Assembly (NCBI GenBank): GCA_947164995.1
Contig: CAMUYU010000012.1
Coordinates: forward strand, 1 to 36,393
DNA length: 36,393 nucleotides
From: an uncultured Clostridia bacterium
GTDB lineage: Bacteria > Bacillota > Clostridia > TANB77 > UBA1234
Direction: 5' to 3'
Each line of letters opens with the position of its first letter. Position 1 is the stretch's first letter. A model generated the notes under the pieces. The model searched no databases. It saw only the letters and a list, made by a program, of their open reading frames with translations, and was not told the origin of the DNA. Both the position numbers and the translations under genes were made by a program. This document shows positions 31,904 to 33,896 of the stretch, one piece after another.

Positions 31904-32437
31904 TTATTTCTTACCCATCTTTCCTTCTTTTCTAATAATATGCTCACCAGCATATTTAATACCTTTGCCTTTATATGGCTCTGGAGGTCTAACTTCTCTG
32001 ATTTCAGCACAAAGTTGTCCAATAGCTTCTTTATTGATTCCTTTTACAATGATTGTATTTGGATTTGGAGCTTCGATTGTAACTCCTTCTCTATCTTCAA
32101 ACTCTACTGTATGAGAAAATCCCATATTCATAATAAGTTTATTACCTTGTTTTTGAACTCTATAACCTACGCCGTTAACTTCAAGTTGTTTTTCAAATCC
32201 ATCTGTAACACCAACAACCATGTTGCTTAAAAGTGTTCTTGATAAACCTGTTAAGTTATCTTTGTTTGGATCTTTAACGCTAACTGTAAGTACGCCAGCA
32301 TCTAATTTGATGTCTACGTCATGATTAAATTCTCTTGTTAAAGTTCCTTTTGGTCCTTTAACTGTAACGTTATGTCCGTCGATTTTAACTTCAACTCCAG
32401 CTGGAACAGCTATAGGTTTTTTACCTATTCTTGACAT
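31904..32437 (-). CDS. rplF: 50S ribosomal protein L6
   Basis: 177 aa, two repeated L6 domains. [50 protein letters not shown] and the C-terminal [20 protein letters not shown] are diagnostic. Normal length; ATG 32437. Confidence 0.97.
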
Positions 32438-32452
32438 TTTTTATTCCCCTTT

Positions 32453-32848
32453 CTACCAAATGTAAGCTAATACTTCTCCACCAATTCCTTCTTCTCTTGC
32501 TTTCTTATCTGTCATGATGCCCTTTGATGTAGAAATTAAAGCTATTCCAAGACCTCCTAATACTTTAGGAAGTTCATCTTTTGCTGCATAAACTCTTAAA
32601 CCAGGTTTAGAAATTCTCTTAAGACCTGAAATAACTTTTTGTTTATTAACGTATTTAAGAGTAATTCTGATAATTCCTTGTGAATTATCTTCTATTTCTT
32701 CATAAGACTTGATATATCCTTCTTCGTATAAGATTTCAGCGATTGCTTTCTTAAGTTTTGAAGCTGGAACATCAACTGTTTCATGTCTTTGTTCATTTGC
32801 ATTTCTAATTCTTGTAAGCATATCTGCTATAGGATCAGTAATGTTCAT
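32453..32848 (-). CDS. rpsH: 30S ribosomal protein S8
   Basis: 131 aa. [20 protein letters not shown] at the start and [20 protein letters not shown] near the end are diagnostic. It binds the central domain of 16S rRNA and in many bacteria autoregulates the spc operon. ATG 32848 with AAAGGAG upstream. It is preceded by an unusual ~305-bp spacer after rpsN. Confidence 0.97.
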
Positions 32849-32916
32849 TTCTTTCTCCTTTCATTTGAAATAATAATTAGTTTAAATATAAACATCACAT
32901 GAAAGTATTTTTTATT

Positions 32917-33021
32917 TTATAAAAATAAGTTGTGATATCTTTCTTGCTTATCAAGAGATTTATCAATTATGCAATCATTTGGCGTACAATGTGCGCCAAC
33001 GCAACCATCACACCAAATCAT
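32917..33021 (-). CDS. Possible 34-aa Cys-rich micro-protein inside the ribosomal operon
   Basis: ATG 33021 opens a short frame beginning MIWCDGCVGAHCTPNDCII, with four Cys and one His in the first 17 residues, then KSLDKQERYHNLFL. The spacing of Cys/His looks like a metal-binding cluster and recalls CIGSAHCDDY of the 61-aa protein at 6828-7013. The ribosome site is weak (AAAG directly upstream), so expression is doubtful; it may be a remnant of a longer gene. Confidence 0.3.
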   Translation of the reverse strand: MIWCDGCVGAHCTPNDCIIDKSLDKQERYHNLFL

Positions 33022-33063
33022 CTTTAAAAAATAATAAATACTCTCTACATTTACTTAACTATA

Positions 33064-33105
33064 TTTCAATAATTTTATTTTAAGTTAGGTTACTAACTAT
33101 TGAAA
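33064..33105. repeat. Nested inverted repeat in the rpsN-rpsH spacer
   Basis: Outer arms TTTCAATA (33064-33071) and TATTGAAA (33098-33105), inner arms AGTTAG (33083-33088) and CTAACT (33093-33098) around GTTA. It could fold as a hairpin in the mRNA. The absence of a T-run argues against a terminator. Confidence 0.5.
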
Positions 33106-33153
33106 AGTTCCAAGTTACTTTTCTCTATTCACTCTTCACTTTTCACTTTCATA

Positions 33154-33339
33154 TTACCAGCTCGCCTTTTTAACACCAGGGATTTGTCCTTTATGAGCTA
33201 ATTCTCTAAAGCAAACTCTGCAGATTCCATACTTACGAATGTAAGAATGTGGTCTTCCACAAATTTTGCATCTGTTATATGCTCTTGTGCTATATTTAGG
33301 AGCTAATTTTTGTTTAGCAATTAATGATTTTTTTGCCAT
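33154..33339 (-). CDS. rpsN: 30S ribosomal protein S14, zinc-binding type (type Z)
   Basis: 61 aa, the short form. Zinc site CKICGRPH ... GICRVCF supplies four cysteines; the N terminus [20 protein letters not shown] and the C terminus [11 protein letters not shown] are typical. ATG 33339. It follows rplE by 17 nt. Confidence 0.97.
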
Positions 33340-33356
33340 TTATTTTTCCTCCTTAA

Positions 33357-33896
33357 TTATTTTGCAAAAGGCATTCCAAGAAGAGCAAGAAGCTCTTTAG
33401 CCTCTTCATCAGTGTTAGCTGTAGTAACAAATATAATGTCCATACCTCTAAGTTTATCAATTTTATCATATTCAATTTCTGGGAATATAAGTTGTTCTTT
33501 AACACCCATTGAATAATTTCCTCTTCCATCGAATGAGTTTGGAGATAATCCTTTGAAATCTCTAACTCTTGGAAGTGCAACATTAAATAGCTTGTATACG
33601 AAGTCGTACATTTTATCAGCTCTTAATGTAACTTTACAACCGATTTCTTGTCCTTCTCTAATTTTAAAACCAGCAATTGATTTCTTTGCTTTTGTAGCAA
33701 CTGGTTTTTGTCCAGTAATGATGCTTAAATCTCTCATAGCATTTTCTAATGCTTTTGAATTTTCTCTAACATCGTTAACACCCATATTAATAACAACTTT
33801 TTCAAGTTTTGGTGCTTGCATTACTGAAGAATAATTAAACTTTTTAACAAGTGCAGGAACTACTTCCTTCTTGTAAGTTTCTTGTAATTTAGTCAT
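33357..33896 (-). CDS. rplE: 50S ribosomal protein L5
   Basis: 179 aa. [54 protein letters not shown] and [20 protein letters not shown] are diagnostic. It binds 5S rRNA and contacts P-site tRNA. ATG 33896 with AAAGGAGG upstream. Confidence 0.97.

Follow-up and report, generated by a model that had tools for sequence, protein, structure and literature searches.

The control that ribosomal protein S8 exerts in E. coli acts at rplE, not at rpsH (PMC10931766), through an operator at the start of rplE in the spc operon in which a helix-21-like internal loop of the mRNA lies beside the ribosome-binding site (PMC10931766, PMC4176348). In 16S rRNA, the S8 site in helix 21 comprises A595-(A596-U644) and G597-C643 with residue 641, together with the invariant A642 (PMC4176348). 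According to the cited review (PMC10931766 / PMC4176348), no E. coli-like S8 structure is found in B. subtilis. The S4 leader of Firmicutes is a lineage-limited mRNA structure that mimics the rRNA site of an operon-encoded ribosomal protein (PMC7247131); the available portion of that paper lists no S8 or rpsH leader, and the terms rpsH and rpsN occur in it 0 times. In the available portions of five papers (PMC10931766, PMC4176348, PMC7247131, PMC2704228, PMC1590033), we found no description of an S8 site before rpsH, which is not proof of absence.

The locus described here is an insert between rpsN and rpsH that represents a conserved cis RNA, neither junk nor a small gene. From its sequence, we tentatively read it as a cis-acting mRNA structure of one low-GC Clostridia genus, the likeliest function being that of an S8 feedback site before rpsH. 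Compared with the E. coli operator as presented in the accessible parts of PMC10931766 and PMC4176348, the operon type and the proposed regulator are the same, and both RNAs place a helix-21-like internal loop beside a ribosome-binding site. Unlike that operator, the insert precedes rpsH, and a long apical domain separates its core strands by ~160 nt; furthermore, residue 641 is A, as in the local 16S rRNA, rather than U, and binding of S8 to the insert is a prediction. The insert resembles the S4 leader, as described in the accessible part of PMC7247131, in being a lineage-limited mRNA structure with a likeness to the rRNA site of an operon-encoded ribosomal protein, and differs from it in being internal to the operon instead of residing at the 5' end.

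The window, that is, the whole 36.4-kb stretch of DNA analysed, carries on its minus strand a ribosomal-protein operon with the gene order rpsC, rplP, rpmC, rpsQ, rplN, rplX, rplE, rpsN, rpsH, rplF, rplR, rpsE, rplO, secY; the gene names were recognised from the sequence of the open frames and are backed across relatives by tblastn maps. Because the open frame of rpsN (S14, 61 aa; 33154..33339, minus strand) ends at 33154 and that of rpsH (S8; 32453..32848, minus strand), the presumed regulator and first target with which the relatives were located, starts at 32848, the gap spans exactly 32849-33153, with the minus strand giving the sense RNA. It is 305 bp long, whereas none of the remaining 12 junctions between rpsC and secY exceeds 57 bp, which bears out the insertion of about 300 bp claimed in the original prediction. 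The accompanying description of this junction as one of the most conserved in bacteria is overstated for the group: the rpsN-rpsH gap has a median of 80 bp across 81 loci and reaches 150 bp or more in 23 of these. Gaps of at least 150 bp are frequent at rplN-rplX (18 of 73 loci), rplF-rplR (14 of 80) and rpsH-rplF (12 of 80) as well. The search with S8 gave a match in 53 of 57 genomes, and a second collection contributed at least 80 loci; the gap comparison covered 111 loci among the matches listed, with the window included twice and several genomes twice.

A homologous insert occupies the same junction in three other genomes of the genus, with gaps of 294 bp (G001), 260 bp (G002) and 251 bp (G003), so that it is orthologous in all four genus genomes compared. 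Among nine genomes of the same family from other genera, the rpsN-rpsH gap measures 33-164 bp and the insert is absent there; neither the gap comparison nor the descriptor scan described below detected an S8-like site at this junction in any sister genus. In this genome, G001 and G002, rpsN-rpsH is the sole covered gap longer than 80 bp; G003 has further long gaps in the operon, which are filled with repeats. With a covariance model of the element, each of the four genus members is recovered with an E of at most 1.3e-27 and at one place per genome, the second matches in G001 and G003 being the same place on the opposite strand because the element is palindromic. At E 0.01, the nine other family genomes yielded a single match (G009, 5.9e-4), located elsewhere and not visibly related to the insert. 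The weak matches of the R1 covariance model in G007 (8), G009 (1) and G004 (1), with E from 5.9e-4 to 0.69, were considered as relatives of the insert and rejected: among the nine of ten that were viewed, the seven from G007 share the GC palindrome only, and L160 and L162 show no visible likeness. Matches to Rfam in 32400-33600 (three up to E 5) all fall far under the gathering scores.

BLAST for copies in the same genome, the check proposed with the original prediction, revealed no convincing second copy of the whole insert, and the same holds for all four genus genomes (this genome is 85% complete, in 39 contigs); the best stray match in a 400-kb sample of this genome is 35 nt long (E 0.002). 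The original prediction had named a lack of other copies, combined with conservation of only a random sequence in relatives, as grounds against itself; other copies were indeed not found, and the part conserved in relatives is not random.

The nested inverted repeat that had been noticed is present, with 32-nt arms at 32901-32932 and 33014-33045 that are 81% complementary. The sense RNA of the gap folds at -66.4 kcal/mol, whereas its shuffles average -46.3 +/- 4.45 kcal/mol (z -4.5) and none of 100 is as stable, and all four orthologues fold better than their shuffles (z -3.9 to -6.0). The alignment of the four sequences fits one structure that consists of a closing and base helix, a long stem, a three-way junction and two hairpins. 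This conserved structured element, as delineated by alignment and covariation, extends over 32865..33073 on the minus strand, to which all the following features belong as well. The closing stem is formed by an invariant run at 33065..33071 (5' strand, TATTGAA) that pairs with 32865..32870 (3' strand, TTTCAA), the latter ending 4 nt before the rpsH Shine-Dalgarno sequence AAGGAG (32855..32860), which itself sits inside a 16-nt invariant block. The arms of the inverted repeat (I1, helix 4) make up the long stem, 33014..33045 being the 5' arm and 32901..32932 the 3' arm. Helix 7 is the second apical hairpin (GATAAATCTCTTG..CAAGAAAGATATC; 32932..32965, limits approximate). Pair-keeping changes on both sides were observed for 9 of the 74 pairs, compared to a shuffle mean of 3.4, with none of 500 shuffles reaching 9; a control with slid pairing partners gave at most 2 such two-sided changes. 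Among five covariation measures, one, that of further pair types, does not stand out, with 74 of 500 shuffles scoring as high. The suggestion of a new regulatory insert is thus supported by the failure to find a second copy, the presence in all four genus members, the compensatory changes and the frozen base helix. Two conventional candidates were rejected: the minus strand of the insert contains no site resembling an intrinsic terminator, and sigma-70 promoter-like sites number 4 on both strands (1 on minus) against 3.5 +/- 1.9 in shuffles.

The link to S8 comes from the base helix, the sequence of which reads 5'-UU-AAGU-AAAU ... AUUU-AAACU-AA and contains a helix-21-like internal loop just upstream of the rpsH ribosome-binding site. 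The 5' strand of this S8-like core, AGUU-AAGU-AAAU (33049..33060, with AAGU at 33056-33053), is invariant in all four genomes from UUAAG onward, and the 3' strand, AUUU-AAACU-AAUU (32875..32887, with AAACU at 32883-32879), includes 12 invariant columns. The last base of the core lies 18 nt before the rpsH Shine-Dalgarno sequence. The numbering of individual window bases and the U598-A640 pairing follow E. coli numbering, in which window base 32881 is the equivalent of A642, and 33054 and 32880 are those of G597 and C643. The core and its flanking complementarity match the features of the S8 site, as given in the accessible part of PMC4176348, in all four orthologues. A 16S rRNA fragment of G007, from the same family, reads GGC-AAGU-UAGU ... 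ACUA-AAACU-GUC, with nine core letters identical to those of the insert, A641 included, and the order-level 16S rRNAs of G036 and G056 likewise have AAGU and AAACU at the helix 21 site. Searches for 16S rRNA were successful in 1 of 13 family genomes, in none of this genus, and in 2 of 25 others tried.

To gauge chance, a strict and a loose descriptor of the core were scanned. On both strands of the window, the strict one matches once, at the insert, and the loose one 8 times; the 16S rRNAs of G036 and G056 are missed because a C-A mismatch adjoins the core. The strict descriptor was found in 17 (this genome), 4 (G003), 10 (G001) and 3 (G002) of 3000 dinucleotide shuffles and, in the same order of genomes, in 26, 14, 29 and 19 of 5000 structure-preserving shuffles (0.3-0.6%); the loose one appeared in 18-103 of 3000 and 77-129 of 5000, respectively. 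These chance figures are optimistic because the descriptor was written with the core match already in view. Across the relatives, the loose descriptor occurs near rpsN-rpsH in 10 of 111 rows, 8 of which are the four genus genomes counted twice, the others being L041 and L108, and the strict one gives 8 coding-strand rows outside the genus, none in the rpsN-rpsH gap. A search for the exact core with short helices in 1,142,742 bases of both strands returned 33 rows, of which the genus element accounts for 6; in L020, L029, L041, L059 and L076, the end of rpsN pairs either with the gap or with the beginning of rpsH, probably by chance.

The frozen position of the core strands is a partly separate line of evidence from these figures. 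In alignment columns 91-297, which stop short of the 16-nt Shine-Dalgarno block, the core is invariant at 22 of 22 columns compared to 101 of the 185 other columns, and upstream of that block no window of 10 nt or longer is fully invariant except in the two core strands. Invariance outside the core is close to that at four-fold sites of the neighbouring genes (91 of 186). Pairwise identity among the four genomes is 75-92% for the element, 68-76% for four-fold sites of four neighbouring genes and 51-70% for the upstream part of the gap; between this genome and G002, the element and the four-fold sites are equally identical. Taken as a whole, the element is accordingly under moderate constraint, given that its identity only modestly exceeds that of four-fold sites.

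The weakest point of the S8 reading is the energetics of the fold. The helices that flank the core consist of A-U and G-U pairs alone, with no G-C pair, and forcing the S8 fold costs 1.8 kcal/mol in this genome, 6.2 in G003, 4.2 in G001 and 2.3 in G002. The core fold is predicted to be probable or partly formed in this genome and G002; in G001 and G003, other pairing is preferred by 4-6 kcal/mol, and the core pairs have a probability of at most 0.15 in the free RNA. The energy model used here does not include base triples, and S8 could select the core fold on binding. Covariation provides no test of the core pairs because these hardly vary.

Other parts of the insert have a different character. 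The 34-aa Cys-rich frame noted originally exists (32917..33021, minus strand) and is not conserved, its length being 34, 18, 14 and 11 codons across the four species; as a small Cys-rich protein gene, for which the ATG frame with four Cys speaks, it is refuted as conserved by these lengths and lacks a Shine-Dalgarno sequence, by eye, in the 20 nt upstream, so that this explanation is extremely improbable. The GTGAA-type purine stretch on the coding strand is also where it was reported (33128..33146, minus strand), outside the aligned part of the three relatives. Both strands of a 400-kb sample of this genome, taken outside the window contig, contain one occurrence of GTGAARAGTGAA and none of AGTGAAGAGTGAA. 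Purine runs of the 7-mer type (GTGAA, GTGAGAG, TTAGAGG) right behind stop codons recur across the order, in some loci with a complementary run before the next gene; they include a GTGAA-type run in the rplF-rplR gap of G003 (L002) and runs in the rpsN-rpsH gaps of L016, L023, L026 and L072.

The apical GC-rich hairpin GGCGCACATTGTACGCCA (32980..32997, minus strand) belongs to a family of dispersed short palindromes: this 18-bp GGCG-CGCC hairpin has 16 strand matches at 11 places in the genome, compared to 0 for the reversed-pattern control, and the ten other places show no wider visible likeness to the insert. The notion of a degenerate repeat element therefore applies to the apical hairpin only, the rest having no convincing second copy. 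In its many copies, the hairpin resembles the dispersed short palindromes and intergenic stem-loop repeats described in the accessible part of PMC1590033; unlike those, the remainder of the element is orthologous, with no second copy found. Within one family, the number of strand matches to short GGCGRCCANTRGYCGCCA palindromes differs from genome to genome, ranging from 0 to 169 (169 in G007, 39 in G002, 21 in G003, 28 each in G011 and G010), with the reversed control at 0 throughout.

Several other repeated elements populate the ribosomal-protein operons of the order. A palindromic element of ~125 bp from a sister family (L234, L258 and L261 of G044; L283, L288 and L289 of G032) occupies the rpsN-rpsH gap, sometimes twice, at 13 of the 81 loci searched, and other operon junctions as well. 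Samples of G044 (689,248 bases) and G032 (400,000 bases) show it concentrated in ribosomal-protein operons, a few copies lying near grpE-dnaK-like and glyS-like genes and, in G032, also S7, EF-G and EF-Tu (names by eye); wherever it was inspected, at all places but a 26-nt match (L293), its orientation is that of the next gene. A second element of ~95 nt with a GGGGACA ... TGTCCCC core (L234 10773-18912 and L266 of G044; L278, L283, L288 and L289 of G032) lies, again in the same orientation as its neighbouring genes, in gaps such as rpsN-rpsH, rplR-rpsE and, twice, rpsE-rplO, and also near purB-like and infB-rbfA-like genes. Rfam gave no match at gathering score in L234, L069, L063 and L067. 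In G003 (L002), the gaps rpsQ-rplN, rplN-rplX and rpsH-rplF hold three related inserts, 87-93% alike and antisense to the operon, which share exact blocks of 17-18 nt with the sister-family palindromic element; these blocks suggest that a single ancient palindromic superfamily spans different families. We rejected an origin of the insert from either the sister-family elements or the repeats in the G003 operon, to which its matches are only short and weak.

Two alternatives to S8 feedback merit discussion. The insert could be an intercistronic RNA structure with no affinity for S8 that sets the expression of the genes on both sides, through mRNA processing, protection of the upstream message or insulation of rpsH translation from rpsN. 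All the structural evidence, including the fold conserved with compensatory changes, fits such an element without S8, and two other repeated elements occupy gaps of ribosomal-protein and other operons in the sister family, in the direction of the next gene where examined. Because long gaps are common in the order and sister-family gaps contain such elements, a structure at this junction is less surprising, and this explanation retains substantial, if minority, plausibility; it gives no account, however, of why the frozen strands match helix 21 or why they lie beside rpsH.

Alternatively, the insert might be what remains of a palindromic mobile repeat after a single insertion in the ancestor of the genus and subsequent drift, the likeness to the S8 site being due to chance. 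Compatible with such an origin are the long, imperfect palindrome, which its own model also recognises on the opposite strand, the dispersed apical hairpin, the repeats in several operon gaps of G003 and the identity of 75-92%, modestly over the 68-76% of four-fold sites and equal to it for this genome and G002. Yet the whole element has no second copy in four genomes, which also led us to reject a MITE-like mobile repeat, the covariation exceeds that of shuffles, the strands are frozen, and the insert has been kept in all four genomes, while this genome, G001 and G002 have no other covered gap above 80 bp. We consider a drifting relic unlikely. S8 feedback at the insert remains the best single reading, at somewhat short of an even chance.

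Under S8 feedback, S8 in excess over free 16S rRNA would bind the core of the insert, the two strands of which would be brought together by the long stem and the three-way junction, and the GC-rich apical hairpin would be a resident short repeat that acts as the cap. The bound protein would clamp the closing stem 4 nt before the Shine-Dalgarno sequence of rpsH, the gene directly downstream, and may thereby crowd the landing site of the 30S subunit; translation of rpsH would then fall and, by coupling, that of the downstream genes as well. The insert may further represent a type of S8 site not known from E. coli, an rRNA mimic directly before rpsH in Clostridia with a folded apical domain of ~160 nt and an origin in a repeat-rich junction, a fuller proposal that we hold with somewhat more reserve than the feedback itself.

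If the S8 reading is true, it would provide one answer to the question of how Firmicutes control the spc operon, and rRNA mimicry would have been invented independently here, at an operon position where it is new. As a candidate S8 site in Clostridia that is well defined and can be mutated, the insert makes this question directly testable.
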